A stretch of DNA of 64,000 nt. Origin: Heterobilharzia americana. Its lineage: Eukaryota > Platyhelminthes > Trematoda > Strigeidida > Schistosomatidae. The notes beneath the pieces were generated by a model. It was not told the origin of the DNA. It searched no databases and was given only the letters and a program-made list of their open reading frames with translations. Positions 5,541 through 45,559 of the stretch are shown in pieces (positions within the stretch are counted from its first letter, which is position 1; the number at the start of each line of letters is the position of its first letter). The stretch covers positions 1 through 64,000 of the forward strand of contig CALYCZ020000355.1 of assembly GCA_944470555.2 (NCBI GenBank), in the 5' to 3' direction. The translations under genes and the position numbers were made by a program.

Positions 5541-5939
5541 CTCACCAATACTATTAGCAAAAGCAACTAAACGATTTCTAGTTGGATGAAAAGTTGTATA
5601 ATTCTTTGAGAATGATGTGTAGACAAAATCAAGGTAGAACCTTGCACACTAATGGATCGGCTGAGGTTGTCAAACTTCACAGCAGCATACTAACAAAAGG
5701 TGGACAAATAGGTATCAGAGTAGACAACGTTACGTGAGAGAATAAACAACTTGAAGATGAAAGTTAATGCGAGTATTCAAGCTTAAGAATATGTTGAGGA
5801 GTGAATACGTCTGCTCCATAGTGACCGATTTTCAGTTATGGTACCATGAGTCCTCAGTCACTGGTCCCTAAAATTTCAAAAACCCCAACCAGGCAATCTA
5901 CACCTTCATATATATATAGCTAAGACTAACAGTCAGAGG
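5541..5939. other. Spacer, no gene recognised
   Basis: Unique-looking sequence containing a short TA run (about 5910-5922). It is repeated inverted in A and B. No supportable coding frame. Confidence 0.5.
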
Positions 5940-12320: not shown

Positions 12321-12496
12321 GCCCAGATTGTGGTCGACTTGACTGGACTGGATTATGCAGCCAACCGTGAGGATTGAGAAGAGGGGCATACGCTGTTTGA
12401 CCGATGAGAGAGCCAAGAAGATTTATATTTCGCCACTGATGATGATTTATGTCTAATGTCTTGTAGCATAAACTCGAAGATCTACATGCATAAACT

Positions 12497-12857
12497 TACA
12501 ATACAAGTGTGAAACTTGAGCACTGTGGTCGAGTGTAAGTCCATCTTAGTCTGTGTATAAGAAATATCACACAGTGAAACAGTAGCATTTACTGGATAAC
12601 GTTTCGGATACAATTAAGTGTCTATATTCATATCAGGTAACTCCACAACTTCGAGACAGGCTTTATATATTCCTAGTTTTCTCTCCTTCTCTGTGATGAC
12701 AAGGGTAGTAGAATTTTCCATATATCTGGGACAGATGCAACATCATTTCGATTGCATGTGTTTGGTGTTGAATATGGACAACAAATTGTGTCCGAAACGT
12801 TATCCAGTAAATGCTACTGTTTCACTGTGTGATATTTCTAATAAACAGACTAAAATG
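12497..12857. mobile_element. Short PLE-derived element with long terminal inverted repeats (arm L)
   Basis: Inverted arms of about 70 bp (12546-12617 and 12782-12853) share GTAGCATTTACTGGATAACG and its complement. The insertion is bounded by the 9-bp duplication GCATAAACT (12488-12496 and 12858-12866), which shows the target was the family-F RT. The interior (reverse strand) resembles the C-terminal coding part of the nearby PLE: both have a stretch equivalent to ATATGGAAA then TTCTACTACC. It is best explained as a non-autonomous Penelope-type insertion. Copies are at 28118-28478 (A) and about 49888-50248 (B). Confidence 0.65.
12766..12812 (+). ncRNA. Possible degenerate Penelope-type hammerhead
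   Basis: A hairpin GGACA...TGTCC is followed by GAAACGTTATCC and preceded by TTGAATA in the place of CUGANGA. The order is that of minimal hammerheads known in PLE terminal repeats. Key core bases differ (the G before the last A is T), so this is a tentative, probably inactive motif. Confidence 0.35.
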
Positions 12858-13027
12858 GCATAAACTAACAAGTTGGCAGAAGAGGCGATTCAGGTCAGTG
12901 AAAGGAGATGGGACTTCGTCCAGGTGAACGTAGAGAAGACAGAGGTGATGAAGATAACCAACCAACAACAACAACAAGCACCAATCACCATTGACGGAAT
13001 AAATCTAAAGGAAGCAGTCTCTTTCAG

Positions 13028-13100
13028 CTACCTACCTACCTACCTACCTACCACCCCACACCTACCTACCTACCAACCCACCCACCTACCTACCTAGTCA
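13028..13100 (+). repeat. Imperfect (CTAC)n microsatellite inside family-F RT
   Basis: CTAC units with a few variant bases replace the codons for the conserved FTYLGS motif. The A (about 27890-27950) and B (about 49665-49715) copies differ in unit number and interruptions. Confidence 0.9.
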
Positions 13101-13370
13101 GCGTCGTTTCAATTACAGGCGGCGACACATGCATAGATGAGGATGTCAAATCTGGGATCGGAAAGAAAGTAAGACAGGCCTTCCTGCATCAGTCTGAAAT
13201 AATGACTGCAGAGATCTTTTGCACTCAGCATAGAGCGTGAACAACATCTGGATTCTCGACACTAACATCAAGTCAGTGCTCCTATGAGAGGGTTCAGAAA
13301 CTTGGAGCGTCACGAAAAGCATTTCCAACAAACTACAGACATTCATCAGCAGCTGTCGCTAACAATCACT

Positions 13371-13969
13371 TAACGCTCACTTCCATCAGCCATGCAGGAT
13401 AGTGTTCAGAGATGCAGTGAGAGGATACAAGGTTTGTGCGGCTTATTTAAACCACCTCTACAATAGCAGATGAATTAGTAAATACACATGGGGTTGCCGA
13501 AGGTGGTAGTTTATCTCCTACACACCCATGAATTAATTGTCGACTAAAGAAAACAATCCGAAGTTAGGCGGAAAAGAAGAAGGTCTTCTTCAGTTCCTTG
13601 GACAATCGATCATTCAGCATCTCTGACAATGTTCCTCCCATGAATCCAACATTTATGAATAGTATGTTCTTTGGGACTGAAGGGGTTTTGAATAGCATCT
13701 CGAATCGTTCTGTTCTTCATTGTCAACTTCAGCTGATCATCAGGATACCAAAACGTATGTAATCAATAGTTTTCATTATATGCAGTTACAAAAATTTACA
13801 TTTAAATACGACTAAATACTTCACAAAATGAGGTAAACCAAATAACACTTCTCAAGTTTATACAAGAACTATCATTCACTTCAGACGATTATAGGAAAAA
13901 CAGCCTGTTTAATTTGTACCACACCACAATGATACTTTGACGACTGTGAAACAACGTAAATGACAACAC
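13371..13969. other. Spacer, no gene recognised
   Basis: Moderately AT-rich DNA between the family-F remnant and the diverged repeat. No supportable gene. Confidence 0.45.
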
Positions 13970-14556
13970 AATTTCAGTAGGTAAGAACACTACATTCAGA
14001 GACGAGAACTGATGAAAAGAGACTCCACCCAACCCCCAGGATACTTCCTTGCCATCAAACAACTATGTCAAATGTCAAATAGCTAACTTTGATGGGTAAG
14101 TTATTGGATAAATTATCCAATGATATTTCAACTAACCACACATGAGACAAGAATTGAAATGCAAGACATCTACGTTAGCAGCTGATGACTTCGAATATTG
14201 ATTTCCTATCAGAAATCTCTTGCAACAATACTGATATCAGTATTCTCCTGTATACCAGTTCTATCAAATGAATCAAATGACCAACTATCTATCTCATCTG
14301 ACTACTTCCACTGACGCCCGCCCGTCCATCTCCTCCTATTGAACCAGATATACAACCTGTGCCATGTTACTTCACTCTGAACGGGTTCCACACGTCTCTC
14401 CTGAACAACTGAAATCATCGGTAAGTAGTGCTTAAATTGATCATGTCACCAACACGCGTCATTGTATCTCGAAACGGGCTACATTCTGAGGTGTAAATCT
14501 TTATATTATCTGCGTTGAAAATCTAATGCCGTTCGTGTGTAAAACTGAGCTTTGTA
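13970..14556 (+). repeat. Unidentified dispersed repeat, copy 2
   Basis: Diverged copy of 9950-10400 in the same orientation. Blocks shared in order include AGAGACGAGA, ACTTCACTC, TGTCACCAA and GAGCTTTGTATGTAA. It contains a GCCCGCCCG patch near 14316. The right end is cut at about 14557 by a SINE on the other strand. Confidence 0.6.
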
Positions 14557-14900
14557 TGTAATACAGCACGGTTCATTGTTGTTTGATACTAGTAATTTCA
14601 CATTGCTATACAGGGCCGAACTGCTAAATCACTGTTGGTAGACGGGCTCCTATGAGGACGCCTCGATACTCCCGGATATTCATGATGCTGTGTCCATCTT
14701 GGTGACTCGTAGTGGAATCCGGGACATTCATTTTGTACTATCACGGACTAATCAGCTAAATGTGTTTTTTTTCACCTCAGTGAGCGGTGTTTTTCCAATT
14801 GGAGAATCGAACCTTGTACCCATCGTTTCAAACGCCATTGAATTATCCACCAGACCACGGGAGTAAAAGGGCCATCAAGTATAATTCGCTGTTGTTTGAT
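14557..14900 (-). mobile_element. Sm-alpha-type SINE with degenerate hammerhead (arm L)
   Basis: On the reverse strand the head has box A TGGTCTGGTGG (about 14851-14861) and box B GGTTCGATTCTCC (about 14802-14814), a near-consensus pol III internal promoter. Next comes a degenerate hammerhead (CTGATTAGTCC ... AAAATGAATGTC, about 14707-14757), then a tail containing GGAGCCCGTCTACCAACAG that is shared in diverged form with the SINE at 18560-18905. The ribozyme core has lost G8 and the GAAA context. Confidence 0.75.
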
Positions 14901-15229
14901 AGTTAGAAATGGTTCATCTTGTTTACTTTCATGGTCTTATTGAGCAGTCTTAAAAATAAGACCTTTCTACCACTACTACTACTCTCCACATCATTCCTTC
15001 ACCGTATGTAGAAATTTTGACCAAACATTGATTGATCACTGGAGAAATACCGAATTCATGCTGTATAGTCCTGAGTACTGACTGATTTCTTTTAATCATT
15101 TCAAAATGTGATCACCAAGCTAGGAGACACTCCATCACGGTGAATTTTGATGAGACAGATAGCCTCGCTTTACCAAGGTTTCCTGCTTTTGTCACTTGTC
15201 ACCCCAAGGAACTGATATCCTCTCTGACA
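14901..15229. other. Spacer with short (ACT)n run
   Basis: Contains a CTACTACTACT run near 14970. No gene recognised. The unit count differs between copies. Confidence 0.45.
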
Positions 15230-16320
15230 TGTGATCATCATCATCAATATCAACATAGGAACAGGCATTACTGCGTAACGATCCGAGTTGCCACACCTCA
15301 TATCAGTACATCAAGTAGAAAGGCAGTGAGTGAAAGGTGAAGATAAGGAAACTTAGTCAAAAGAAATATGAAGTAGGAAAAGAGAGAAAGGAAGAATGAG
15401 AAAATGGTGAGGTTCGGCATAGCGTCGTTAAGATGAGGATAATGTGTGTCGGTATGCATATGCGCCACTGACATCGGTTCTGAACCATGTGATCACCTAG
15501 GGTTTCCAACCACTGGTTCCTCTTGTCCGCCAATCCCAACCACCCAGTCTCTGTCGCCCCACATGTTTCAAACCAACTGTCAAACACTTCACACATTGAT
15601 GTCATGTTTTAGTCTGGCCATCTCGGCCCCTTTTTCCAGCCTGCACCCACCTCAGCCAACATTGTGTGACGAGGCAATCAGCTACTAGGCATAAGTAACA
15701 CATGTCCCAACCACCTCAGTCGATGGAGGTTCACAACTTCGTCAACTGATTCACCTCTACTCCCTAAAACTCTACACCTCACTTCTGCATTACTCATGTG
15801 GTGACACCATGGAATACGGCATATACTACGAAGGCAACGGTGGTCAAACACTTGAAGCCTTCTCATGTCTTCCACCTTCAATGGCCATGTTTCACAGCCA
15901 TACAGTGGAACAGAGCGGACTGCTGTGCAGGTGCAGGTGCAGTGCACGCAACCCATAACAGGCAGTCAGATATCACGGCAGCGCCATATGTGGTGTTAGT
16001 TGACAAAAGCCAGTCATGCTTTTATATTGGTGTAGAGATTCCATCGGTCAGTGAGCCACCACGGCTGATCCTACTTACCAGGTAAGTGAAGTGGTCAACA
16101 CACTCAACCATTACACTCTCTATTGTTAGCCGTGGAACCGGTGAAGATGAATCCTGGAGTAACAATTTACATTTGAGTGGTGATATACGCATCTCAAACA
16201 TTCTCAAATCACTGGTCAAAGTGTCCAGAAGACTCTCGATCTTGTCAGTGTCTTCACCTAACAGGACTATGCCATCTGCATATTGTAGGTGTCACAAAAA
16301 TTCTCCCGACATGTGAACCC
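15230..16320 (-). pseudogene. Family-Y retrotransposon RT 3' end, reverse strand (arm L)
   Basis: The reverse strand reads QYADGIVLLGEDTDKIESLL (near 16255-16300), TSDLRMFEMRISPLKCKLLLQD, VDHFTYLVSRIS, then LYGCETWPLKVEDMRRLQVF and RLRWLGHVLLMPSS followed by a stop (near 15678-15690). Arm A has the same stop and B does not. It ends in a (GAT)n tail (about 15235-15250). It is 5'-truncated at about 16320, a usual outcome of target-primed reverse transcription. It closely resembles the Y copy at 1-1175. Confidence 0.85.
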
Positions 16321-16639
16321 ACTCACGGTGATCGACCTCCGGTTTGGGATGGATTAGATGTATTGATTTATCATTTAAGAGATGCCAGTTTCATTCTGTT
16401 CAGTCCTGTGTGCTGATGAAGTACTAGAGATCATTTGGCAATAAGACCACCTTACTGTTTCAAGATGAGACTGATAGCAGTAAGAAGTGACAAATTTTCT
16501 GTTGTTAACGTTTGACAGATGAATATAAACTATTTTTTTGATAGTGATCTGCATTCTATTTTCGGAAGTGTCTTTTATGGCATTAGGGGATAATTTACGA
16601 TACATTTAAAGTAAGCGAGGATCCGCAAAGCAGGACTGG
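16321..16639. other. Spacer between two retroelement ends
   Basis: An open frame on the reverse strand (16375-16605) is preserved in all copies but has no recognisable domain. Confidence 0.4.
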
Positions 16640-17200
16640 CTTTCATTAATCTGATATTAGTGTGGAGATCTACTGCACTCCACTGCATTCAGCAGAAAGC
16701 ATGAAGAAGAAACGGATTTTCAACATCAACGTCAAGTCACTGCTTCTATGTGATGGTTCAGAAACTTGGTGTGTCACGAAAAGCACTTCCAACAAACTAC
16801 AGACATTCATCAACAGCTGCAACCCACGCTCACTCGATACTGAAGATGAGATCAGATGACCGGAAAGGATAATAAGAATAAGTAAGAAGGAACTCTGGCT
16901 GGCTGGCTGGCTGGCTGGCTGGCTAGCAACAAACCAAGGAGGCGAGAACCCATCACCCAACAAATATGCGGAAGAAGAACATGGAGATGTATTGGATTGG
17001 AAACGATGAGTTGGACGTCCGAGGTGAGGGTGACGTGGAGGCGATGATGTGAGGAAGAAATGAAAGCTTGTGTGGAGTCGTGGAGAAAGGATGAACAGAT
17101 TGCAGAGAAAAGAGTGGAATAACGGCGTGCTACTGAATTCCTATGTTCAACTAGGAACCCAAGAGGAAAATAATAATAATAATAATAATGATAATAATTT
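16640..17200 (+). pseudogene. Family-F retrotransposon 3' end (arm L), just upstream of the GT31 gene
   Basis: Frames give NINVKSLLLCDGSETWCVTK and STSNKLQTFINSCNPRSLDTEDEIR (split here), then a CTGG-repeat in place of ELWERTN. A 3' UTR follows, ending in a (TAA)n-rich tail (about 17166-17200), typical of RTE-type 3' ends. The fragment is 5'-truncated. The GT31 start codon lies about 150 bp downstream, so the element may have landed in the gene's upstream region. Confidence 0.8.
16895..16925 (+). repeat. (CTGG)n microsatellite
   Basis: About 7-8 units in L, about 4-5 in A (24066-24084) and about 7 in B (45830-45857). It lies at the codons equivalent to LWERT of family F. Confidence 0.9.
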
Positions 17201-17290
17201 CAGTAAGTGATTTATCGGGTACTATAGCTCTACTTGGTTATCAGGGTATCATATTGGTATATAAAGCTAACTTGATTAACTATGCTGTAT

Positions 17291-17303
17291 GTTTTATTTA
17301 CAG
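17291..17303 (+). promoter_or_regulatory. Possible 3' splice acceptor upstream of GT31
   Basis: The pyrimidine-rich run GTTTTATTTACAG ends 50 bases before the GT31 ATG. It fits an acceptor for a 5' UTR exon or for spliced-leader addition, which schistosomes use. No donor was identified. Confidence 0.35.
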
Positions 17304-17353
17304 ATAATGTTCAATGAACAAATCAAGGGATAATTGAATTCATAATTGTAGCA

Positions 17354-18481
17354 ATGCTCAGCATACATTTGTGTTATCCATTCAATCGAATACTATATGA
17401 AAGAAACATTGATTACACTTTATACTATACTATTTTAACACGTATTTTTCAAGGTTTTATCATTCTGTTTATTTTCTTCAATATTATATACTTTATAATA
17501 ATTTTTATCAATGGTATATATTATATGATATGTAATGATAAAGTTATTGTATATACCGAGAAGCATAACAGTGTATACCCTGTTGATAATAGTATGAATC
17601 ATACTGGATATTATGAATACTTACTTACACCGAATACAACATATATTCATACAATCCTTTCACCAAAAAACCAATGTAATTCATTATCATATAATAATGA
17701 AACAAATATTCTACTATTTATTAAATCAACAATTGATCAGTTTGAATTACGCCAATCATTACGTAATACATGGGCTAATTATAAATGTTATATAAAATAT
17801 GGTATTAGAGCATATATTTACTTTACTCTTGGTAGACAGAATATATCAGCATGGAATACATCATCATTAATACAATCTAGAATATTTTATGAACATAAAA
17901 TATATCAAGATATTCTACAATTTGATTTTATTGAAAGTTATTATAATGTAACACGAAAATTGATTGGAACCATTGAATACGCTACTTTACATTGTTTTAA
18001 TGCAAAGTTTATTTTATTAATTGATCAAGATTTTATTGTTAATCCAATGAATTTAGCAAAATATCTTTCAAATATTAATACTATTGAATATACTAGATAT
18101 GTTGGAGGTTATATAATTCAACATGCTGTACCATTTCGAAATGAAAATAGTAAATGGTTTATTTCGAATAGAAATTTCCCATTCAATTCATATCCAAGTT
18201 ATCCTATTGGTGGAACAATAATTTTTAGTCGACCAGTTGTTATTACCTTGAATAAGATATTACGTCATATGAAATTATTCCCCTTTGATGATGTATTAAT
18301 TGGTATTATTTTAGAAAAACTTCAAATTCCAATTGTTCATATAAAAATATTTTCTTTGAAAAATATATTTCAAATGTTAGACAACAGTTTATTACTTTAC
18401 ACACTTATGATAATGCGAATATTCTGTTTAATATATGGAAATCTTTACGATTCTATGATATGTGTATATAATATAAGATGA
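17354..18481 (+). CDS. GT31 family beta-1,3-galactosyltransferase-like protein (arm L copy)
   Basis: The gene is predicted to make a 375-residue type II Golgi membrane enzyme transferring a sugar from UDP-sugar in beta-1,3 linkage. There is a short cytoplasmic start, then one membrane anchor (about residues 34-59). The lumenal domain carries GT31 motifs in order: R133-x3-R137-N-T-W140; E180 to K202 (DILQFDFIESYYNVT, the family DF-DSY-NLT block); the DxD metal site D224-Q-D226 followed by FIVNP; YPSYPIGGTIIFS (280-292); and D312-D-V-L-I-G317. N-glycosylation sequons occur at N94, N163, N168 and N198. No intron interrupts the frame. It is AT-rich compared with the flanking retroelements. The last 35-40 residues look unlike the family; the -1 frame (stop at 18469-18471) offers a better tail. 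Acceptor specificity cannot be told. Confidence 0.85.
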   Translation: MLSIHLCYPFNRILYERNIDYTLYYTILTRIFQGFIILFIFFNIIYFIIIFINGIYYMICNDKVIVYTEKHNSVYPVDNSMNHTGYYEYLLTPNTTYIHTILSPKNQCNSLSYNNETNILLFIKSTIDQFELRQSLRNTWANYKCYIKYGIRAYIYFTLGRQNISAWNTSSLIQSRIFYEHKIYQDILQFDFIESYYNVTRKLIGTIEYATLHCFNAKFILLIDQDFIVNPMNLAKYLSNINTIEYTRYVGGYIIQHAVPFRNENSKWFISNRNFPFNSYPSYPIGGTIIFSRPVVITLNKILRHMKLFPFDDVLIGIILEKLQIPIVHIKIFSLKNIFQMLDNSLLLYTLMIMRIFCLIYGNLYDSMICVYNIR

Positions 18482-18559
18482 AAAATGCTTCAACTAACAC
18501 TAATCAATCCGTTTCGTTTGTTTTCTTTTTCTAAAATAATATTCATGTTACTGTAATTA

Positions 18560-18905
18560 TCAATGATAAGTCGGTGATTGGCGAAAGTAATACGGGACTC
18601 ATGTTTTATTCTATTTGAGATTTGTTTATCACCTGGATGTACCTGCATCTCAGTGAATGATGTTATTCCCATTCTTCCTTTCAAACTCCAAAGGGATATA
18701 TATTCATTAAGCCACTGGAGTATGATAGCCACATCTTGTACAATAGGTGTCAATTGTTGTAATGATACTTGTAATTTTCAGTTACTCTACACGGCCGAAT
18801 TTCTCGACTTCAGTTGGCAGGTGGGCTCCTATGTGTATGCCACGATATTGCCAGTTATTCCTGTTATCCTTTCAGTCGTGGATTGGGCATTAGCTGACTA
18901 TTGAG
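18560..18905 (-). mobile_element. Degenerate Sm-alpha-type SINE downstream of GT31 (arm L)
   Basis: The reverse strand shows GTACATCCAGGTGATAAAC, CTCAAATAGAATAAAACATGAGTCCCG. These align with the hammerhead order (stem I, core, CAAATA loop, GAAA, stem III) but nearly all core bases are changed. The tail CACCTGCCAACTGAAGTCGAG ... GGCCGTGTAGAG resembles the tail of the 14557-14900 SINE. Open frames on both strands here (18490-18753 and 18578-18904) are preserved in the copies but are explained by the SINE. Confidence 0.6.
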
Positions 18906-18952
18906 TGATAAATAAAGCCGAACCTAAATATACTTTATACTAAATATATATA

Positions 18953-20355
18953 CCTAAATATATCGGACTTAAGTAGAGTGGCTTTATTCCACCCTCTTGT
19001 GTTTGATGAGATCATACTAGGCGTACAGTTGTGCCTCACCTCCACAGCCTTCAAGTTTCAGGACAAAATATACAGACAAACAGAAACAGTAGCAATGGGA
19101 TCACCAATATCCCTAATCGTAGCAGATATATTTATGGATAGTTAGGAAAGCATGGCTTTACAAAAGTTTAGTCCTCCACCTAAGATATGCTGGCGATATA
19201 TGGATGACACGTTTACTGTGTTGAAATAGGAACATATCGACAATTTCCTAATACATATAAACTCAGTAGTGGACGCAATCCAATTCACTCACGAGAAGGT
19301 AGAAAGTGAACCAGAAGAATTACAGGATAAAAAGGAAGGACAGACGGTAGCTTGGATACTACTGTCTACAGAAGACCAACACATTCCAACAGGTATCTAG
19401 ACTTCAAATCATCCCATCAGATGTCAGCTAAGGCAGGTTTAGTCAAATGTTCAAGTGATAGAGCTAGAAAACTGACTAGTCACAGAAACAACCTAAACAA
19501 TGAATTGAAGCACATAAAAGAAGCACTAATAGTTAATAATTATCTTCCACAGTTTATCACGAAATTCCTACATATTCACAAGAAACGAAAAAATAACAGT
19601 CACACGGGTTCGACTAATAAGGACAACACGAGTGGAAATGAGTTCACAGCCTCCATTGTGTTACCGTAGAAGGTGTGTACATCAGAAACTTTACATAAGA
19701 TCCTCAACAGAGCTGGAATTAGAGGGGCATTTAAACCTACAAACTCACTCCGAGATAAACTCTGTCAGCTGGTTTAAAGATCAGATAGAACCAATTAAGC
19801 AAAATAATATAATCTATCAAATGCGATGTAATGACTATGAGGTCAAGTGCATAGGTCAAACTAGCCCGGTTGGTCGGGGTCAGTTAGAATAGCCGAACAT
19901 AGGAATTTATCTAAATATAGAATAACAGACCCAAATAAGATCAATAATGTAGAAAAACAGTCGGCTGTCGCTATGCATGCATTAACACACAACCACACAA
20001 TAGGGTTAAATAAAGCCACTCTACTTAAGTCCAATACATTTAGGTAAAGAGAGAGAGAGATTGATTACTGAATTTTTGTTCATCGAATCAACACGCAACA
20101 CATGTGATAGAAATGACACAACACTTACATCAGAGATATGGAAAGTTCTACTACCGATAAAGACAACTCATATGAGGTGATGTAACTATAAAAATCGAAT
20201 GTCGAAAGTGGTGTGATTACAATCATATGATGATGAGTAATGATAATTTCTGTTCTAAACATCATCAAGTAAATAATACTGTATCACGTGGTGTGTTATA
20301 AATCAAATAAATCAGTGTAATATTTTGAGGGAGTTGTGGAGATTTGAAAATATTT
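18953..20355 (+). pseudogene. Penelope-like element: RT fragment plus GIY-YIG tail (arm L)
   Basis: Translation with frame changes gives FQDKIYRQTETVAMGSPISLIVADIFMDS (PLE motif with AMGSPIS, about 19055-19143), then CWRYMDDTFTVLK (RT catalytic YMDD, about 19189-19227). VYRRPTHSNRYLDF (about 19364-19405) and a linker follow, then IIYQMRCNDYEVKCIGQTS (GIY-YIG-type start, about 19810-19866) and a C-terminal ESTRNTCDRNDTTLTSEIW. It is broken by stops after FMDS and TVLK. The 36-bp inverted sequences at 18953-18988 and 20009-20044 bound most of the RT/GIY-YIG part. The 5' RT half is absent. The family is known to encode RT plus GIY-YIG endonuclease. Confidence 0.8.
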
Positions 20356-20412
20356 CAAGTTGTTATTCATCGTAGACTGACATCATTTGGAGGAACAAAG
20401 GAAACTTGGGAT

Positions 20413-20464
20413 CACTGGACAGCTGTTTCGTCCTAGTATGGAACTCCTTAGCAGTGCGCACTAA
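20413..20464 (-). ncRNA. Hammerhead ribozyme, damaged core (left arm of fold-back element)
   Basis: The reverse strand reads GCACTG-CTAAGGAG, a TTCC/GGAC stem II region, GAAA, stem III ACAGCTGT, C, then CAGTG for stem I. The essential G of CUGANGA is A, and stem II has a mismatch, so activity is unlikely. Confidence 0.75.
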
Positions 20465-20471
20465 CGACGTA

Positions 20472-20507
20472 TTGGCCACGGAACCTGAAGTTCACGGGTT
20501 CGATCCC
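20472..20507 (+). promoter_or_regulatory. tRNA-like internal pol III promoter (box A/box B)
   Basis: Box-A-like TTGGCCACGG (20472-20481) and consensus box B GGTTCGATCCC (20497-20507) lie in the unpaired loop. Their strand matches the intact hammerhead downstream, the usual order in Sm-alpha elements. The close box spacing suggests a shortened tRNA head. Confidence 0.65.
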
Positions 20508-20521
20508 TGGCTGAGTCGTTG

Positions 20522-20578
20522 GTGTGCACTGCTGAGGAGTCCCATACTAGTCGGACGAAACAGCTGTCCAGTGCTCTC
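20522..20578 (+). ncRNA. Hammerhead ribozyme with intact core
   Basis: Stem I is GCACTG (20526-20531) with CAGTGC (20569-20574). The core CTGAGGAG (20532-20539) fits CUGANGAG. Stem II pairs TCC (20540-20542) with GGA (20553-20555) plus G20539-C20556, with a 10-base loop. GAAA is at 20557-20560. Stem III is the self-complementary ACAGCTGT (20560-20567). The cleavage base C is 20568. All essential core bases known for the family are present. The loopless 4-bp stem III is a feature of SINE hammerheads, which may cleave better as dimers. Confidence 0.88.
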
Positions 20579-20943
20579 AGGTTTCCTTTGTTCCTTCAAC
20601 TGATGTCAGTCTACAATGAAAAACAACTTGAAATATTTTCAAATCTCCACAACTCCCTCAAAATATTACACTGATTTATTTGATTTATAACACACCACGT
20701 GATACAGTATTATTTACTTGATGATGTTTAGAACAGAAATTATCATTACTCATCATCATATGATTGTAATCACACCACTTTCGACATTCGATTTTTATAG
20801 TTACATCACCTCATATGAGTTGTCTTTATCGGTAGTAGAACTTTCCATATCTCTGATGTAAGTGTTGTGTCATTTCTATCACATGTGTTGCGTGTTGATT
20901 CGATGAACAAAAATTCAGTAATCAATCTCTCTCTCTCTTTACC

Positions 20944-22036
20944 TAAATGTATTGGACTTAAGTAGAGTGGCTTTATTTAACCCTATTGTGTGGTGTGTGT
21001 GTTAATGCATGCATAGCGACAGCCGACTGTTTTTCTACATTATTGATCTTATTTGGGTCTGTTATTCAATATATTTAGATAAATTCCTATGTTCGGCTAT
21101 TCTAACTGACCCCGACCAACCGGGCTAGTTTGACCTATGCACTTGACCTCATAGTTATTACATCGCATTTGATAGATTATATTATTTTGCTTAATTGGTT
21201 CTATCTGATCTTTAAACCAGCTGACAGAGTTTATCTCGGAGTGAGTTTGTAGGTTTAAATGCTCCTCCAATTCCAGCTCTGTTGAGGATCTTATGTACAG
21301 TTTCTGATGTACACACCTTCTACGGTAACACAATGGAGGCTGTGAACTCATTTCCACTCGTGTTGTCCTTATTAGTCGAACCCGTGTGACTGTTATTTTC
21401 TCGTTTCTTGTGAATATGTAGGAATTTCGTGATAAACTGTGGAAGATAATTATTAACTATTAGTGCTTCTTTTATGTGCTTCAATTCATTGTTTAGGTTG
21501 TTTCTGTGACTAGTCAGTTTTCTAGCTCTATCACTTGAACATTTGACTAAACCTGCCATAGCTGACATCTGATGGGATGATATGAAGTCTAGATACCTGT
21601 TGGAATGTGTTGGTCTTCTGTAGACAGTAGTATCCAAGCTACCGTCTATCCTTCCTTTTTATCCTGTAATTCTTCTGGTTCACTTTCTACCTTCTCGTAA
21701 GTGAATTGGATTGCGTCCACTACTGAGTTTATATGTATTAGGAAATTGTCGATATGTTCCTATTTCAACACAGTAAACGTGTCATCCATATATCGCCAGC
21801 ATATCTTAGGTGGAGGACTAAACTTTTGTAAAGCCATGCTTTCCTAACTATCCATAAATATATCTGCTACGATTAGGGATATTGGTGATCCCATTGCTAC
21901 TGTTTCTGTTTGTCTGTATATTTTGTCCTGAAACTTGAAGGCTGTGGAGGTGAGGCACAACTGTACGCCTAGTATAATCTCATCAAATACAAGAGGGTGG
22001 AATAAAGCCACTCTACTTAAGTCCGATATATTTAGG
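20944..22036 (-). pseudogene. Penelope-like element fragment (arm A copy)
   Basis: Inverted copy of the arm L PLE with the same breaks. Differences in the conserved frames include DFISSH for DFKSSH, SAMAGLV for SAKAGLV, KKRENN for KKRKNN, ELEEHL for ELEGHL and CNNYEV for CNDYEV. The terminal 36-bp inverted sequences are retained. The repeat-rich stretch near 22030-22060 (TATATATTTAG) differs in length from B. Confidence 0.8.
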
Positions 22037-22083
22037 TATATATATTTAGTATAAAGTATATTTAGGTTCGGCTTTATTTATCA

Positions 22084-22430
22084 CTCAATAGTCAGCCAAT
22101 GCTCAATCCACGACTGAAAGGATAACAGGAATAACTGGCAATATCGTGGCATACACATAGAAGCCCACCTGCCAACTGAAGTCGAGAAATTCGGCCGTGT
22201 AGAGTAACTGAAAATTACAAGTATCATTACAACAATTGACACCTATTGTACAAGATGTGGCTATCATACTCCAGTGGCTTAATGAATATATATCCCTTTG
22301 GAGTTTGAAAGGAAGAATGGGAATAACATCATTCACTGAGATGCAGGTACATCCAGGTGATAAACAAATCTCAGATAGAATAAAACATGAGTCCCGTATT
22401 ACTTTCGCCAATCACCGACTTATCATTGAT
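22084..22430 (+). mobile_element. Degenerate Sm-alpha-type SINE (arm A copy)
   Basis: Inverted copy of 18560-18905 with a few substitutions (for example CTCAGATAGAAT where L has CTCAAATAGAAT). No intact ribozyme core. Confidence 0.6.
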
Positions 22431-22507
22431 AATTACAGTAACATGAATATTATTTTAGAAAAAGAAAACAAACGAAACGGATTGATTAGTGTTAGTTGAA
22501 GCATTTT

Positions 22508-23635
22508 TCATCTTATATTATATACACATATCATAGAATCGTAAAGATTTCCATATATTAAACAGAATATTCGCATTATCATAAGTGTGTAAAGTAATAA
22601 ACTGTTGTCTAACATTTGAAATATATTTTTCAAAGAAAATATTTTTATATGAACAATTGGAATTTGAAGTTTTTCTAAAATAATACCAATTAATACATCA
22701 TCAAAGGGGAATAATTTCATATGACGTAATATCTTATTCAAGGTAATAACAACTGGTCGACTAAAAATTATTGTTCCACCAATAGGATAACTTGGATATG
22801 AATTGAATGGGAAATTTCTATTCGAAATAAACCATTTACTATTTTCATTTCGAAATGGTACAGCATGTTGAATTATATAACCTCCAACATATCTAGTATA
22901 TTCAATAGTATTAATATTTGAAAGATATTTTGCTAAATTCATTGGATTAACAATAAAATCTTGATCAATTAATAAAATAAACTTTGCATTAAAACAATGT
23001 AAAGTAGCGTATTCAATGGTTCCAATCAATTTTCGTGTTACATTATAATAACTTTCAATAAAATCAAATTGTAGAATATCTTGATATATTTTATGTTCAT
23101 AAAATATTCTAGATTGTATTAATGATGATGTATTCCATGCTGATATATTCTGTCTACCAAGAGTAAAGTAAATATATGCTCTAATACCATATTTTATATA
23201 ACATTTATAATTAGCCCATGTATTACGTAATGATTGGCGTAATTCAAACTGATCAATTGTTGATTTAATAAATAGTAGAATATTTGTTTCATTATTATAT
23301 GATAATGAATTACATTGGTTTTTTGGTGAAAGGATTGTATGAATATATGTTGTATTCGGTGTAAGTAAGTATTCATAATATCCAGTATGATTCATACTAT
23401 TATCAACAGGGTATACACTGTTATGCTTCTCGGTATATACAATAACTTTATCATTACATATCATATAATATATACCATTTATAAAAATTATTATAAAGTA
23501 TATAATATTGAAGAAAATAAACAGAATGATAAAACCTTGAAAAATACGTGTTAAAATAGTATAGTATAAAGTGTAATCAATGTTTCTTTCATATAGTATT
23601 CGATTGAATGGATAACACAAATGTATGCTGAGCAT
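22508..23635 (-). CDS. GT31 family beta-1,3-galactosyltransferase-like protein (arm A copy)
   Basis: The protein is identical to the arm L copy: membrane anchor at residues 34-59, DxD as D224-Q-D226, and D312-D313 near the C-terminus. Comparison by eye through the whole gene found one base difference, an Ile codon (ATC in L, ATA here) at about residue 52. The same suspected C-terminal frame change is present. The flanks are shared: a family-F 3' end upstream and a degenerate SINE downstream. If transcribed, it runs away from the palindrome centre. Confidence 0.85.
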   Translation of the reverse strand: MLSIHLCYPFNRILYERNIDYTLYYTILTRIFQGFIILFIFFNIIYFIIIFINGIYYMICNDKVIVYTEKHNSVYPVDNSMNHTGYYEYLLTPNTTYIHTILSPKNQCNSLSYNNETNILLFIKSTIDQFELRQSLRNTWANYKCYIKYGIRAYIYFTLGRQNISAWNTSSLIQSRIFYEHKIYQDILQFDFIESYYNVTRKLIGTIEYATLHCFNAKFILLIDQDFIVNPMNLAKYLSNINTIEYTRYVGGYIIQHAVPFRNENSKWFISNRNFPFNSYPSYPIGGTIIFSRPVVITLNKILRHMKLFPFDDVLIGIILEKLQIPIVHIKIFSLKNIFQMLDNSLLLYTLMIMRIFCLIYGNLYDSMICVYNIR

Positions 23636-23789
23636 TGCTACAATTATGAATTCAATTATCCCTTGATTTGTTCATTGAACATTATCTGTAAATAAAACAT
23701 ACAGCATAGTTAATCAAGTTAGCTTTGTATACCAATATGATACCCTGATAACCAAGTAGAGCTATAGTACCCGATAAATCACTTACTGT

Positions 23790-24340
23790 AATTATTATCA
23801 TTATTATTATTATTATTATTTTCCTCTTGGGTTCCTAGTTGAACATAGGAATTCAGTAGCACGCCGTTATTCCTCTCTTTTCTCTGCAATCTGTTCATCC
23901 TTTCTCCACGACTCCACACAAGCTTTCATTTCTTCCTCACATCATCGCCTCCACGTCACCCTCACCTCGGACGTCCAACTCATCGTTTCCAATCCAATAC
24001 ATCTCCATGTTCTTCTTCCGCATATTTGTTGGGTGATGGGTTCTCGCCTCCTTGGTTTGTTGCTAAGCCAGCCAGCCAGCCAGAGTTCCTTCTTACTTAT
24101 TCTTATTATCCTTTCCGGTCATCTGATCTCATCTTCAGTATCGAGTGAGCGTGGGTTGCAGCTGTTGATGAATGTCTGTAGTTTGTTGGAAGTGCTTTTC
24201 GTGACACACCAAGTTTCTGAACCATCACATAGAAGCAGTGACTTGACGTTGATGTTGAAAATCCGTTTCTTCTTCATGCTTTCTGCTGAATGCAGTGGAG
24301 TGCAGTAGATCTCCACACTAATATCAGATTAATGAAAGCC
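23790..24340 (-). pseudogene. Family-F retrotransposon 3' end (arm A copy)
   Basis: Counterpart of 16640-17200, with the (TTA)n tail at about 23790-23820 and a shorter (CTGG)n run (24066-24084). Frames again show SETWCVTK and STSNKLQTFIN on the reverse strand. Confidence 0.8.
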
Positions 24341-24656
24341 AGTCCTGCTTTGCGGATCCTCGCTTACTTTAAATGTATCGTAAATTATCCCCTAATGCCA
24401 TAAAAGACACTTCCGAAAATAGAATGCAGATCACTATCAAAAAAATAGTTTATATTCATCTGTCAAACGTTAACAACAGAAAATTTGTCACTTCTTACTG
24501 CTATCAGTCTCATCTTGAAACAGTAAGGTGGTCTTATTGCCAAATGATCTCTAGTACTTCATCAGCACACAGGACTGAACAGAATGAAACTGGCATCTCT
24601 TAAATGATAAATCAATACATCTAATCCATCCCAAACCGGAGGTCGATCACCGTGAG
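24341..24656. other. Spacer between retroelement ends
   Basis: Counterpart of 16321-16639. No gene recognised. Confidence 0.4.
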
Positions 24657-25747
24657 TGGGTTCACATGTCGGGAGAATTTTTGTGACACCTACAATATGC
24701 AGATGGCATAGTCCTGTTAGGTGAAGACACTGACAAGATCGAGAGTCTTCTGGACACTTTGACCACTGATTTGAGAATGTTTGAGATGCGTATATCACCA
24801 CTCAAATGTAAATTGTTACTCCAGGATTCATCTTCACCGGTTCCACGGCTAACAATAGAGAGTGTAATGGTTGAGTGTGTTGACCACTTCACTTACCTGG
24901 TAAGTAGGATCAGCCGTGGTGGCTCACTGACCGATGGAATCTCTACACCAATATAAAAGCATGACTGGCTTTTGTCAACTAACACCACATATGGCGCTGC
25001 CGTGATATCTGACTGCCTGTTATGGGTTGCGTGCACTGCACCTGCACCTGCACAGCAGTCCGCTCTGTTCCACTGTATGGCTGTGAAACATGGCCATTGA
25101 AGGTGGAAGACATGAGAAGGCTTCAAGTGTTTGACCACCGTTGCCTTCGTAGTATACGCCGTATTCCATGGTGTCACCACATGAGTAATGCAGAAGTGAG
25201 GTGTAGAGTTTTAGGGAGTAGAGGTGAATCAGTTGACGAAGTTGTGAACCTCCATCGACTGAGGTGGTTGGGACATGTGTTACTTATGCCTAGTAGCTGA
25301 TTGCCTCGTCACACAATGTTGGCTGAGGTGGGTGCAGGCTGGAAAAAGGGCCGAGATGGCCAGACTAAAACATGGCATCAATGTGTGAAGTGTTTGACAG
25401 TTGGTTTGAAACATGTGGGGCGACGGAGACTGGGTGGTTGGGATTGGCGGACAAGAGGAACCAGTGGTTGGAAACCCTAGGTGATCACATGGTTCAGAAC
25501 CGATGTCAGTGGCGCATATGCATACCGACACACATCATCCTCATCTTAACGACGCTATGCCGAACCTCACCATTTTCTCATTCTTCCTTTCTCTCTTTTC
25601 CTACTTCATATTTCTTTTGACTAAGTTTCCTTATCTTCATCTTTCACTCACTGCCTTTCTACTTGATGTACTGATATGAGGTGTGGCAACTCGGATCGTT
25701 ACGCAGTAATGCCTGTTCCTATGTTGATATTGATGATGATGATCACA
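24657..25747 (+). pseudogene. Family-Y retrotransposon RT 3' end (arm A copy)
   Basis: Reads QYADGIVLLGEDTDKIESLL near 24695, LYGCETWPLKVEDMRRL near 25075 and RLRWLGHVLLMPSS, then a TGA stop at about 25300. The stop is shared with arm L but absent from B. TWHQCVKCLTVGLKHVG follows. Ends with a (GAT)n tail near 25730-25742. Confidence 0.85.
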
Positions 25748-26076
25748 TGTCAGAGAGGATATCAGTTCCTTGGGGTGACAAGTGACAAAAGCAAGAAACC
25801 TTGGTAAAGCAAGGCTATCTGTCTCATCAAAATTCACCGTGATGGAGTGTCTCCTAGCTTGGTGATCACATTTTGAAATGATTAAAAGAAATCAGTCAGT
25901 ACTCAGGACTATACAGCATGAATTCGGTATTTCTCCAGTGATCAATCAATGTTTGGTCAAAATTTCTACATACGGTGAAGGAATGATGTGGAGAGTAGTA
26001 GAGTAGTGGTAGAAAGGTCTTATTTTTAAGACTGCTCAATAAGACCATGAAAGTAAACAAGATGAACCATTTCTAA
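25748..26076. other. Spacer
   Basis: Counterpart of 14901-15229. It has a GTAGTAGAGTAGTGG variant of the trinucleotide run. No gene recognised. Confidence 0.4.
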
Positions 26077-26420
26077 CTATCAAACAACAGCGAATTATAC
26101 TTGATGGCCCTTTTACTCCCGTGGTCTGGTGGATAATTCAATGGCGTTTGAAACGATGGGTACAAGGTTCGATTCTCCAATTGGAAAAACACCGCTCACT
26201 GAGGTGAAAAAAACACATTTAGCTGATTAGTCCGTGATAGTACAAAATGAATGTCCCGGATTCCACTACGAGTCACCAAGATGGACACAACATCATGAAT
26301 ATCCGGGAGTATCGAGGCGTCCTCATAGGAGCCCGTCTACCAACAGTGATTTAGCAGTTCGGCCCTGTATAGCAATGTGAAATTACTAGTATCAAACAAC
26401 AATGAACCGTTCTGTATTAC
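26077..26420 (+). mobile_element. Sm-alpha-type SINE with degenerate hammerhead (arm A copy)
   Basis: Box A TGGTCTGGTGG (about 26116-26126) and box B GGTTCGATTCTCC (about 26165-26177) precede CTGATTAGTCC and a decayed core. Same element as 14557-14900. Confidence 0.75.
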
Positions 26421-27610
26421 ATACAAAGCTCAGTTCTACACATGAACGGCATTAGATTTTCAACGCAGATAATATAAAGATTTACACCTCAGAATGTAGC
26501 CCGTTTCGAGATACAATGACGCGTGTTGGTGACATGATCAATTTAAGCACTACTTACCGATGATTTCAGTTGTTCAGGAGAGACGTGTGGAACCCGTTCA
26601 GAGTGAAGTAACATGGCACAGGTTGTATATCTGGTTCAATAGGAGGAGATGGACGGGCGGGCGGGCGTCAGTGGAAGTAGTCAGATGAGATAGATAGTTG
26701 GTCATTTGATTCATTTGATAGAACTGGTATACAGGAGAATACTGATATCAGTATTGTTGCAAGAGATTTCTGATAGGAAATCAATATTCGAAGTCATCAG
26801 CTGCTAACGTAGATGTCTTGCATTTCAATTCTTGTCTCATGTGTGGTTAGTTGAAATATCATTGGATAATTTATCCAATAACTTACCCATCAAAGTTAGC
26901 TATTTGACATTTGACATAGTTGTTTGATGGCAAGGAAGTATCCTGGGGGTTGGGTGGAGTCTCTTTTCATCAGTTCTCGTCTCTGAATGTAGTGTTCTTA
27001 CCTACTGAAATTGTGTTGTCATTTACGTTGTTTCACAGTCGTCAAAGTATCATTGTGGTGTGGTACAAATTAAACAGGCTGTTTTTCCTATAATCGTCTG
27101 AAGTGAATGATAGTTCTTGTATAAACTTGAGAAGTGTTATTTGGTTTACCTCATTTTGTGAAGTATTTAGTCGTATTTAAATGTAAATTTTTGTAACTGC
27201 ATATAATGAAAACTATTGATTACATACGTTTTGGTATCCTGATGATCAGCTGAAGTTGACAATGAAGAACAGAACGATTCGAGATGCTATTCAAAACCCC
27301 TTCAGTCCCAAAGAACATACTATTCATAAATGTTGGATTCATGGGAGGAACATTGTCAGAGATGCTGAATGATCGATTGTCCAAGGAACTGAAGAAGACC
27401 TTCTTCTTTTCCGCCTAACTTCGGATTGTTTTCTTTAGTCGACAATTAATTCATGGGTGTGTAGGAGATAAACTACCACCTTCGGCAACCCCATGTGTAT
27501 TTACTAATTCATCTGCTATTGTAGAGGTGGTTTAAATAAGCCGCACAAACCTTGTATCCTCTCACTGCATCTCTGAACACTATCCTGCATGGCTGATGGA
27601 AAGTGAGCGT
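26421..27610. other. Diverged repeat copy 2 (to about 27007) and spacer (arm A)
   Basis: Inverted counterpart of 13371-14556. The part to about 27007 is the unidentified dispersed repeat (GGCGGGCGGGCG patch near 26655). The rest holds no recognised gene. Confidence 0.5.
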
Positions 27611-29690
27611 TAAGTGATTGTTAGCGACAGCTGCTGATGAATGTCTGTAGTTTGTTGGAAATGCTTTTCGTGACGCTCCAAGTTTCTGAACCCTCTCATA
27701 GGAGCACTGACTTGATGTTAGTGTCGAGAATCCAGATGTTGTTCACGCTCTATGCTGAGTGCAAAAGATCTCTGCAGTCATTATTTCAGACTGATGCAGG
27801 AAGGCCTGTCTTACTTTCTTTCCGATCCCAGATTTGACATCCTCATCTATGCATGTGTCGCCGCCTGTAATTGAAACGACGCTGACTAGGTGGGAAGGTA
27901 GGTAGGTAGGTGTGGGGTGGTAGGTAGGTAGGTAGGTAAGTAGGTAGCTGAAAGAGACTGCTTCCTTTAGATTTATTCCGTCAATGGTGATTGGTGCTTG
28001 TTGTTGTTGTTGGTTGGTTATCTTCATCACCTCTGTCTTCTCTACGTTCACCTGGACGAAGTCCCATCTTCTTTCACTGACCTGAATCGCCTCTTCTGCC
28101 AACTTGTTAGTTTATGCCATTTTAGTCTGTTTATTAGAAATATCACACAGTGAAACAGTAGCATTTACTGGATAACGTTTCGGACACAATTTGTTGTCCA
28201 TATTCAACAACAAACACATGCAATCGAAATGATGTTGCATCTGTCCCAGATATATGGAAAATTCTACTACCCTTGTCATCACAGAGAAGGAGAGAAAACT
28301 AGGAATATATAAAGCCTGTCTCGAAGTTGTGGAGTTACCTGATATGAATATAGACACTTAATTGTATCCGAAACGTTATCCAGTAAATGCTACTGTTTCA
28401 CTGTGTGATATTTCTTATACACAGACTAAGATGGACTTACACTCGACCACAGTGCTCAAGTTTCACACTTGTATTGTAAGTTTATGCATGTAGATCTTCG
28501 AGTTTATGCTACAAGACATTAGACATAAATCATCATCAGTGGCGAAATATAAATCTTCTTGGCTCTTCTCATCGGTCAAACAGCGTATGCCCCTCTTCTC
28601 AATCCTCACGGTTGGCTGCATAATCCAGTCCAGTCAAGTCGACCACAATCAGGAAGATCATCGGCGATAGTAGGCGGTAACTTTGTCTTACTCCTTCCTG
28701 TCTTCACTTCAAAGCAATCACTGAGCTCTCCATTGTCAATCACTCGGCATGTAGCACCATCATATAGTACATACCTGTTGAATGAGGTTGATATAGGTTT
28801 GTGGCACTGAAACTGTAGTGTTGAAGCAGCTACCTGACAAATTACTTCTCGGTCCACACTACTGAAGACCTCTTCAAGGTCGATGAAGTTGAGGTTGAGT
28901 TGAGTTGAATATCATTCAATGCTCTGTTCTATGATGATGTGTAGCGTGGCGCTGCAATTTGATCCACACATGATTTGTTCTTCCTGAAGCCAGCCAGCCA
29001 GCCAGCCAGCGTGTTGCAGTCGTACTCCAGTTGAATCAAGAGAATTTTCATTCCAATCTCTCCAGGATGATACGGCCTGATAGTTTGTTTGCTTCGGGTA
29101 GATAGGAGCATGATTCCCTGCAAGTTCTTGCAGAGACTTTGGTCTCCCTTCTTTGGGAGTTTGACAAGGTGCATTTTCTTCCGATCTACTGGCAGGTACC
29201 TTCCTTTCCTTGCTTCCTTCCTTCCTTGAAAACCTTCTGCAATAGTGGTCGTGCTGCTTGCCCAGATTTTAGCAACTTCATGGCATGGCGTTCACAACTA
29301 CACTTCTGCTGTTGTCGGAGAGCTCGAGTTCACTGGTAATTCAATTCTGTGACTGGGCTGCTGGTGGTATTTTAGGACGAGTTGCAGCTGGTGGTGGTGG
29401 TGGTCAATTCAAGAGTTTTTCGAAGTAGTTGGCTCATTGTTTCCTTTGTTCCTCCTCTTTGATAACTAGGTTTCCTTCACTATCACTACCTTTATTGGTT
29501 TCATCTATGTTGATCTCTTCTCTACCAGATAGTAACCTGATTATTTGATATAATGTTGTCAGATCTCTATCTCTCCTACCTGCAGCCTGTTCTGCTTCAC
29601 TTGGAAGTGTGTAGTGGAAGTGTCTTTTGTCTTTGTGCTCACTCTTCTCCACTTCTTTGTCCAGTGTTGTGTTTTATAGGTTGTGTTCAT
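27611..29690 (-). pseudogene. Family-F retrotransposon (arm A copy), RT palm retained
   Basis: Same insertion as 10460-13370 in L, reverse strand. This copy keeps about 680 bp (28640-29325) missing from L and B. The retained part encodes LVKLPKKGDQSLCKNLQGIMLL, RKNKSCVDQIA (NQAGF-region equivalent, with CTGG repeats just before it) and an RT palm with VICQVAASTLQFQ and VIDNGELSDCFEVKTG. It is therefore closer to the ancestral element here. It loses everything beyond 29690: the TTTTC of the linker joins AGTTAACAC at a TTCA microhomology, removing the endonuclease half. Confidence 0.82.
28118..28478. mobile_element. PLE-derived inverted-repeat insert (arm A copy)
   Basis: Counterpart of 12497-12857. 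The terminal inverted repeats and the flanking GTTTATGC duplication are retained. The interior differs by a few bases (GTTGTCCATATTCAACAAC). Confidence 0.6.
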
Positions 29691-42055: not shown

Positions 42056-42192
42056 ATACTGGAGAAGAAGCCTTTGTTTCTGCGCATACAAATCGAGGGA
42101 GATGTTACAAGTGACATTTTATTACAAATATTAGATTTCAAGTTGTTTTTCATTGTAGACTGACATCAGTTGAAGGAACAAAGGAAACCTGA

Positions 42193-42246
42193 GAGCACTG
42201 GACAGCTGTTTCGTCCGACTAGTATGGGACTCCTCAGCAGTGCACA
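42193..42246 (-). ncRNA. Hammerhead ribozyme with intact core (copy B)
   Basis: The reverse strand reads GTGCACTG-CTGAGGAG-TCC...GGA-CGAAACAGCTGTC-CAGTGC. Pairing and core are the same as 20522-20578. Stem I is slightly better paired here (TGCACTG with CAGTGC). Confidence 0.87.
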
Positions 42247-42309
42247 CCAACGACCCAGCCAGGGATCGAACCCGTGAACTTCAGGTTCCGTGGCCAATAC
42301 GTCGTTAGT

Positions 42310-42357
42310 GCGCACTGCTAAGGAGTACCATACTAGGACGAAACAGCTGTCCAGTGA
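42310..42357 (+). ncRNA. Hammerhead ribozyme, damaged core (copy B)
   Basis: CTAAGGAG carries A in place of the invariant G, and AGTACC...GGAC makes a poor stem II. It is the equivalent of 20413-20464. Confidence 0.75.
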
Positions 42358-42723
42358 TCCCAAGTTTCCTTTGTTCCTCCAAATGATGTCAGTCTACGAT
42401 GAATAACAACTTGAAATATTTTCAAATCTCCACAACTCCCTCAAAATATTACACTGATTTATTTGATTTATAACACACCACGTGATACAGTATTATTTAC
42501 TTGATGATGTTTAGAACAGAAATTATCATTACTCATCATCATATGATTGTAATCACACCACTTTCGACATTCGATTTTTATAGTTACATCACCTCATATG
42601 AGTTGTCTTTATCGGTAGTAGAACTTTCCATATCTCTGATGTAAGTGTTGTGTCATTTCTATCACATGTGTTGCGTGTTGATTCGATGAACAAAAATTCA
42701 GTAATCAATCTCTCTCTCTCTTT

Positions 42724-44273: not shown

Positions 44274-45401
44274 TCATCTTATATTATATACACATATCAT
44301 AGAATCGTAAAGATTTCCATATATTAAACAGAATATTCGCATTATCATAAGTGTGTAAAGTAATAAACTGTTGTCTAACATTTGAAATATATTTTTCAAA
44401 GAAAATATTTTTATATGAACAATTGGAATTTGAAGTTTTTCTAAAATAATACCAATTAATACATCATCAAAGGGGAATAATTTCATATGACGTAATATCT
44501 TATTCAAGGTAATAACAACTGGTCGACTAAAAATTATTGTTCCACCAATAGGATAACTTGGATATGAATTGAATGGGAAATTTCTATTCGAAATAAACCA
44601 TTTACTATTTTCATTTCGAAATGGTACAGCATGTTGAATTATATAACCTCCAACATATCTAGTATATTCAATAGTATTAATATTTGAAAGATATTTTGCT
44701 AAATTCATTGGATTAACAATAAAATCTTGATCAATTAATAAAATAAACTTTGCATTAAAACAATGTAAAGTAGCGTATTCAATGGTTCCAATCAATTTTC
44801 GTGTTACATTATAATAACTTTCAATAAAATCAAATTGTAGAATATCTTGATATATTTTATGTTCATAAAATATTCTAGATTGTATTAATGATGATGTATT
44901 CCATGCTGATATATTCTGTCTACCAAGAGTAAAGTAAATATATGCTCTAATACCATATTTTATATAACATTTATAATTAGCCCATGTATTACGTAATGAT
45001 TGGCGTAATTCAAACTGATCAATTGTTGATTTAATAAATAGTAGAATATTTGTTTCATTATTATATGATAATGAATTACATTGGTTTTTTGGTGAAAGGA
45101 TTGTATGAATATATGTTGTATTCGGTGTAAGTAAGTATTCATAATATCCAGTATGATTCATACTATTATCAACAGGGTATACACTGTTATGCTTCTCGGT
45201 ATATACAATAACTTTATCATTACATATCATATAATATATACCATTTATAAAAATTATTATAAAGTATATAATATTGAAGAAAATAAACAGAATGATAAAA
45301 CCTTGAAAAATACGTGTTAAAATAGTATAGTATAAAGTGTAATCAATGTTTCTTTCATATAGTATTCGATTGAATGGATAACACAAATGTATGCTGAGCA
45401 T
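44274..45401 (-). CDS. GT31 family beta-1,3-galactosyltransferase-like protein (copy B)
   Basis: The 375-residue protein is identical to the other two. Where compared in detail (the C-terminal two thirds and the region around residue 52), its DNA matches the arm A copy, including ATA at the Ile codon that is ATC in L. Membrane anchor, DxD site and late D-D-V motif are intact. The same C-terminal frame question applies, so the change predates the duplication. Of the three, this copy lies outside the palindrome proper. Confidence 0.85.
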   Translation of the reverse strand: MLSIHLCYPFNRILYERNIDYTLYYTILTRIFQGFIILFIFFNIIYFIIIFINGIYYMICNDKVIVYTEKHNSVYPVDNSMNHTGYYEYLLTPNTTYIHTILSPKNQCNSLSYNNETNILLFIKSTIDQFELRQSLRNTWANYKCYIKYGIRAYIYFTLGRQNISAWNTSSLIQSRIFYEHKIYQDILQFDFIESYYNVTRKLIGTIEYATLHCFNAKFILLIDQDFIVNPMNLAKYLSNINTIEYTRYVGGYIIQHAVPFRNENSKWFISNRNFPFNSYPSYPIGGTIIFSRPVVITLNKILRHMKLFPFDDVLIGIILEKLQIPIVHIKIFSLKNIFQMLDNSLLLYTLMIMRIFCLIYGNLYDSMICVYNIR

Positions 45402-45559
45402 TGCTACAATTATGAATTCAATTATCCCTTGATTTGTTCATTGAACATTATCTGTAAATAAAACATACAGCATAGTTAATCAAGTTAGCTTTGTATACCA
45501 ATATGATACCCTGATAACCAAGTAGAGCTATAGTACCCGATAAATCACTTACTGAAATT

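Follow-up and report, generated by a model that had tools for sequence, protein, structure and literature searches.

A fold-back hammerhead SINE at the centre of a palindrome in Heterobilharzia americana

Introduction

When a mobile element lies exactly at the centre of a long palindrome, did it arrive there afterwards, was it created by the mirroring, or did it take part in joining the arms? The question is raised by the window, 64,000 bp of Heterobilharzia americana DNA corresponding to bases 1-64000 of contig C307 (106,752 bp; genome G000, 664.9 Mb), in which an inverted dimer of a hammerhead SINE, here called E, separates two long inverted arms. An initial annotation had proposed that a mobile SINE with inverted hammerheads could have seeded the palindrome through intrastrand annealing and fold-back synthesis. 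Hammerhead SINEs are described from schistosomes as SM-alpha and SJ-alpha (Ferbeyre 1998, Laha 2000, cited in PMC2770079 and PMC8490949), and some of the tRNA-Gln-like predictions in S. mansoni are SM-alpha-like (PMC2770079). Active hammerheads are also reported in schistosome W-elements, and the S. mansoni W chromosome is described as rich in satellite-like repeats (PMC8490949).

The palindrome and the element at its centre

Contig C307 is an array of five copies of a repeated unit, which we label C1-C5; C2, C3, C4 and C5 share one orientation and C1 has the opposite one (Table 1). The largest scaffold (162.6 Mb; named G000:C1, which is distinct from array unit C1) carries a single unit at 54.18-54.20 Mb, with E at 54,186,185. 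Unit C2 is set apart by a deletion that joins 5216 to about 1438-1444, at 33965/33966. BLAST aligns 12326-20468 with 20515-28650 in inverted orientation over 8161 columns at 98.9% identity, leaving a spacer of 46 bp and a centre at 20488; these ranges include the stem halves of E. Among the inverted pairs listed for the contig (at least 700 bp, above 96% identity), this is the only one with a spacer below 8 kb. Besides the substitutions given in Table 1, the C1 and C2 arms differ by indels and, farther out, by structural differences. The palindrome is one case, in one unplaced contig.

Table 1. Features of the window and of contig C307
Feature	Position	Strand	Details
Unit C1	C307 1-20634		inverted relative to C2-C5; left end of the contig falls inside C1
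Unit C2	20635-about 35.5k
Units C3, C4, C5	E at 42135, 71036 and 97333 (C307)
Left palindrome arm (unit C1)	12326..20317	+	35 mismatches/7967 vs right arm
Right palindrome arm (unit C2)	20669..28650	-	35 mismatches/7967 vs left arm
E, a probably tRNA-derived hammerhead SINE in the form of an inverted dimer (fold-back)	20352..20634	.	283 bp
Stem of E	20352-20468 / 20515-20634		centre 20493
Loop of E	20469-20514		46 bp
Type I hammerhead ribozyme, right half of E	20526..20574	+	Rfam RF00163, 42.9 bits (gathering 34)
Degenerate type I hammerhead, left half of E	20412..20457	-	31.0 bits, below gathering 34; core altered
SINE 3' tail of the full half of E, arm side (C1)	20318..20351	-	34 bp
Mirror tail, C2 side	20635..20668	+	34/34 identical; Y sequence here in the four other copies
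Junction interval	20622..20634	.	last 13 bp common to both halves of E; Y replaced by inverted arm
E in unit C3, non-palindromic (Y-E-arm)	42135..42417	-
Y sequence adjoining E in C3	40297..42134	+	also in C4, C5 and largest scaffold; absent at palindrome junction
GT31 beta-1,3-galactosyltransferase frame, C1 copy	17318..18481	+	Pfam PF01762 (Galactosyl_T), 3.9e-36
GT31 frame, C2 copy	22508..23671	-	99.9%
GT31 frame, C3 copy	44274..45437	-	99.9%
GT31 frame, C4 and C5 copies	C307:73187-74351 and 99487-100650

E consists of one full and one truncated half, and its hammerheads face outward. When folded, the whole element forms a single long hairpin, with -202 kcal/mol and z -24.7 against shuffles for the RNA and z -22 for the DNA. 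The reported coincidence of the element and palindrome centres is borne out (20493 for E, 20488 for the BLAST palindrome), and the element is present as described, with its range corrected from 20356..20630 to 20352-20634. Its description as a tRNA element refers to the SINE head, which is probably tRNA-derived, and not to a tRNA gene; ARAGORN finds none in the window. The loop contains GGTTCGATCCC (20497..20507, + strand), which, by eye, we take to be a tRNA B-box-like motif.

The window also holds a second inverted hammerhead-SINE pair at 5063-5554 (arms 5063-5148 and 5469-5554), outward facing and scoring 53.4 bits each, which we take to be SM-alpha-like. Its counterpart in C3 lies at about 57178-57669. 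The breakpoint of the C2-specific deletion falls inside this pair, with TATG shared as judged by eye.

A genome-wide family of fold-back SINEs

A genome search with E as query gave 7,326 first-look candidates, of which 40 places were scored, and all 40 match nearly the whole query on both strands. In a second search, with another copy as query, 40 of 7,647 candidates were scored and comprise, by our count, 36 full-length fold-backs and four monomers; the reverse match is in pieces in three of the 36, and 15 of them had already appeared in the first search, leaving 21 new ones. The scored places of both searches thus contain about 61 distinct fold-backs. E therefore belongs to a genome-wide family of fold-back SINEs, and the proposal of a mobile SINE with inverted hammerheads is upheld. 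At 20 loci (L005-L024), Rfam recognizes a hammerhead at the gathering threshold in both halves of nine, in one half of ten and in neither half of one.

The flanks of 27 of the 61 fold-backs were inspected, five of the 27 belonging to the amplified unit. Apart from the window copy, none of them (26 of 27) shows in-register mirror symmetry past the element within about 1.4 kb; one, L015, has a weak match that is out of register. We considered whether E might be inverted merely because the palindrome mirrored a single SINE, and rejected this idea on account of these 26 loci and of the matches on both strands in 40 of 40 scored copies.

Monomers, the likely parent of the fold-back dimers, comprise a leader, a tRNA-like head in which A- and B-box-like motifs were identified by eye, a hammerhead and, at the end, a conserved tail. 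Of the loci outside the amplified unit (L006-L027, 22 in all), 17 combine a full tail with a truncated one, four have two full tails and one is unclassified. Exact target-site duplications of at least 8 bp (8-13 bp) border 11 of these 22 loci, and nine of the 22 reach at least 11 bp; at the other 11, duplications are of 6-7 bp or absent. When flanks were swapped between loci as a control, duplications of at least 8 bp arose in 30 of 462 combinations and of at least 11 bp in one of 462. Taken together, the tails and the duplications point to target-primed insertion of ready-made inverted dimers. In most of the 17 loci with unequal tails (within L007-L027), the truncated end of the dimer lies at or near one SINE position (CTTGAAAT). 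The loop is oriented toward the full tail in eight and away from it in eight of 16 classifiable loci (the amplified unit counted once, L013 taken as left-full), which is a poor fit to a pure snap-back origin at each insertion.

A conserved stretch past the usual tail end (..CTCATTGGTGA, by eye) is seen in the right flanks of L015, L017 and L026 and in the left flanks of L006, L020 and L023. A monomer lies near several of the E copies that carry this extra stretch. From these flanks, the 3' end of the SINE may be longer, or composite. Beyond E itself, a 60-kb stretch from the largest scaffold holds one more full copy, and the flanks of 22 copies hold another, which gives a density of roughly one fold-back per 60 kb in a small, biased sample.

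The element preceded the palindrome

The order arm-E-Y is found in C3, C4, C5 and the largest scaffold (G000:C1, 54,186,185), where Y denotes the sequence adjoining E on the side away from the arm. Among the five E copies at 99% identity or more in the scored places, arm-E-arm occurs only at C307:20494, and there an inverted arm stands where the other copies have Y. Each palindrome arm starts with the 34-bp tail that belongs to E's full half. Since the right arm opens with the element's own tail, it was gained after E was in place, and the arrangement of the copies accordingly indicates that E was present before the palindrome. Insertion of E into an existing palindrome is rejected for the same reason, and also because the four other copies have E between arm and Y.

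The stem of E is far more diverged than the arms (11 of 117 positions, plus three gap positions, versus the arm mismatches of Table 1; Fisher p 3e-11). We asked whether this might mark E as the slow-converting centre of an old palindrome. This was rejected, because C3, C4 and C5 have the same number of stem mismatches (11, 11 and 11) with no palindrome around them; the scaffold copy has 13.

The junction

The right half of E keeps the sequence of the truncated half up to 20621, and tail and arm follow from 20635. The change from diverged to near-identical sequence falls within 13 bp of the point at which the four other copies leave the element, and the change from Y to inverted arm is in register with the other half of E. 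The junction has inverted homology, namely the 13-bp perfect end of the 117-bp stem, and a single-copy spacer, the loop, which is present once. Because Y is replaced in register within the last 13 bp of the truncated half, the stem homology of E was probably used in joining the arms. The suggestion that the element seeded the palindrome therefore stands in so far as E is the earlier of the two and its stem homology marks the junction in register; the mode of joining that had been suggested is a separate matter, considered below.

Trimming of a flap to the end of the annealed stem, followed by synthesis, would predict the observed position of the junction. A random crossover within the stem would land in the 13-bp end about one time in nine (13/117), so that the position gives a weak pointer to trimming as against random crossover.

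It is also conceivable that an inverted join made by end-joining happened to land at E by chance. E-type fold-backs are common at the density estimated above from a small, biased sample, and another inverted junction in C307 has no more than about 2 bp of homology. Chance would nevertheless need two independent breakpoints that are mirror-symmetric and in register within the stem of E, and the terminal 13-bp stretches would, at that density, make up about 0.04% of the sequence. We consider this explanation very improbable.

Which molecules were joined

With moderate confidence, we propose that two units were joined head to head through the symmetry of E, with one E remaining as the centre. As the copies themselves show, E had inserted between arm and Y in a unit that was later amplified as an array. 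Each half of E being the inverted repeat of the other, two copies that lie in one orientation, whether in different array units or on sister chromatids, could pair as if they were inverted. If C1 broke on the Y side of its E, the truncated half could anneal to the full half of the E in another unit; the Y flap would be trimmed to the end of the homology, and repair would run through the SINE tail into the arm of the partner unit, leaving C1 and C2 head to head with a single E between them. What is observed is that the junction lies in register at the end of the stem; the pairing of two units, the trimming of the flap and the enzymes involved are inferred. An identical junction would also result if two E copies underwent a reciprocal inversion; the reciprocal product, Y-E-Y, is absent among the five E copies at 99% or more in the scored places.

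The main competing explanation is intrastrand fold-back, in which a resected end would fold at E, prime on its own left half and copy the C1 arm. The truncated half is naturally extendable on the longer one, and its end coincides exactly with the junction. Substitutions between C1 and C2 start only at alignment column 522, and the first indel difference is at column 361. The loop is 46 bp long; in yeast, intra-molecular fold-back was favoured when the spacer was short (12 bp), and inter-molecular joining when it was 1 kb (PMC6103520), and by this analogy the loop length argues against the joining of two units. Fold-back inversions that proceed through a hairpin, flap removal and extension are described in yeast, where template switching has been proposed as well (PMC7467729), and 3 of 21 sequenced junctions of human inverted duplications lay in inverted pairs of homologous LINE or SINE repeats (PMC3907307).

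Fold-back synthesis, the mode put forward in the initial annotation, predicts that the two arms are each other's closest relatives, and the arms do not bear this out. With the largest scaffold as outgroup, no sites are derived in C1 and C2 alone, whereas four are derived in C2, C3, C4 and C5 and not in C1; several patterns are mixed, and the sites are few enough for conversion to mask a sister relationship. Divergence is 0.31% between C2 and C5, 0.41% between C1 and C5 and 0.56% between C1 and C2. Unpolarised two-against-two sites among C1, C2, C3 and C5 number three for C1C2, six for C1C3 and four for C1C5. The derived sites, small as the counts are, thus suggest that a join of two different units fits better than self-copying. 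Gene conversion between units is likely and could have shifted the few informative sites. To accommodate them, fold-back would require that the C2 arm was later replaced by conversion from its neighbours, or that a template switch occurred within about 0.5 kb; we regard it as possible, if on the whole unlikely.

Finally, the join might be an artefact, either a template-switch chimera formed at E during library amplification or an assembly misjoin of two units. Chimeras that arise during amplification are frequently joined in inverted orientation where homology is short, which counts in favour of such an origin, as does the fact that C307 is a 106,752-bp contig whose left end lies inside C1. 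Against it, joining on 13 bp would be unusual for assemblers, and the arms differ by 35 substitutions in 7967 positions, by indels and by the structural differences farther out, so that they do not represent one molecule read back on itself. An artefact appears improbable to us, and the joining of two units through E remains our preferred reading.

Generality and gene content

Palindromic flanks occur at one of the 27 inspected E loci, the window copy. Conversely, C307 contains a second inverted duplication (60151-64681 / 75121-79650) with no E at its junction or ends: unit C4 breaks off at 75121-75122, where an inverted segment from the unit's far end takes over, and the two sides share at most about 2 bp. 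Seen from the side of the element, the suggested enrichment test thus gives one palindrome centre among 27 E loci; with the inverted junction at 75121 that lacks E, it follows that E is neither sufficient nor necessary for inverted joining. One example underlies the general claim that SINEs of this kind seed palindromes. It is a doubtful extension that fold-back ribozyme SINEs, possibly in thousands of copies, would act as portable palindrome seeds, whose same-orientation copies recombine as if inverted and so enable head-to-head gene amplification and inversion genome-wide.

The value of the locus is that four sister units keep the arrangement that preceded the palindrome, so that the order of events is open to direct reading and the join can be placed exactly. 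Were fold-back SINEs to repeat this process, the sites at which palindromic gene amplification can start would be set by a mobile element. Near-identical copies of a glycosyltransferase gene are carried by the amplified unit. Its GT31 frame is 99.7-100% identical in the five array copies and less divergent than the arms; in the C4 copy a single base is added, and the frame ends three codons early. The C1 frame matches a protein assigned to Heterobilharzia americana at 100% identity over 86% of its length. The copy on the largest scaffold (G000:C1:54188006-54188876) is without about the last 290 bases.

Comparison with known systems

Fold-back elements and MITEs have long terminal inverted repeats around a short loop. 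E shares with them the long inverted repeats and the short loop, and inverted repeats are terminal in all 40 scored places of the first search. Unlike in MITEs, target-site duplications have no fixed length, varying from 8 to 13 bp at the 11 of 22 loci where they are clear, and together with one full and one truncated tail they point to target-primed reverse transcription.

In the open-access literature searched, no paper on inverted SINE dimers was found, and among the papers listed no title or abstract opening mentions a ribozyme SINE at a palindrome centre. E resembles SM-alpha and SJ-alpha, as these are described, in being a SINE-like, high-copy element with a type I hammerhead in a blood fluke. 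It differs from them in being an inverted dimer with outward-facing hammerheads. The halves of E also differ in sequence from the SINE at 5387-5554, whose SM-alpha-like label is our own.

As in the human inverted duplications bounded by Alu or LINE repeats, inverted repeats here mark the boundary between single-copy spacer and inverted copy (PMC3907307). The human repeats, reported as 82-95% identical, belong to two separate elements (PMC3907307), whereas E carries both halves itself and the arms look like non-sister units of an array. Our preferred reading, the joining of two units, resembles inter-molecular single-strand annealing in yeast, in which two molecules give an inverted dimer (PMC6103520, PMC10164571): inverted repeats anneal between molecules with clipping of 3' flaps (PMC6103520), and repeats up to 25% diverged remain active in single-stranded DNA (PMC10164571). 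The yeast systems use engineered breaks and repeats, whereas here the process would have taken place in a natural array. Relative to these sources, inverted repeats near breaks as seeds and inverted duplications bounded by Alu or LINE repeats are already known, and the ribozyme SINE is the new part.
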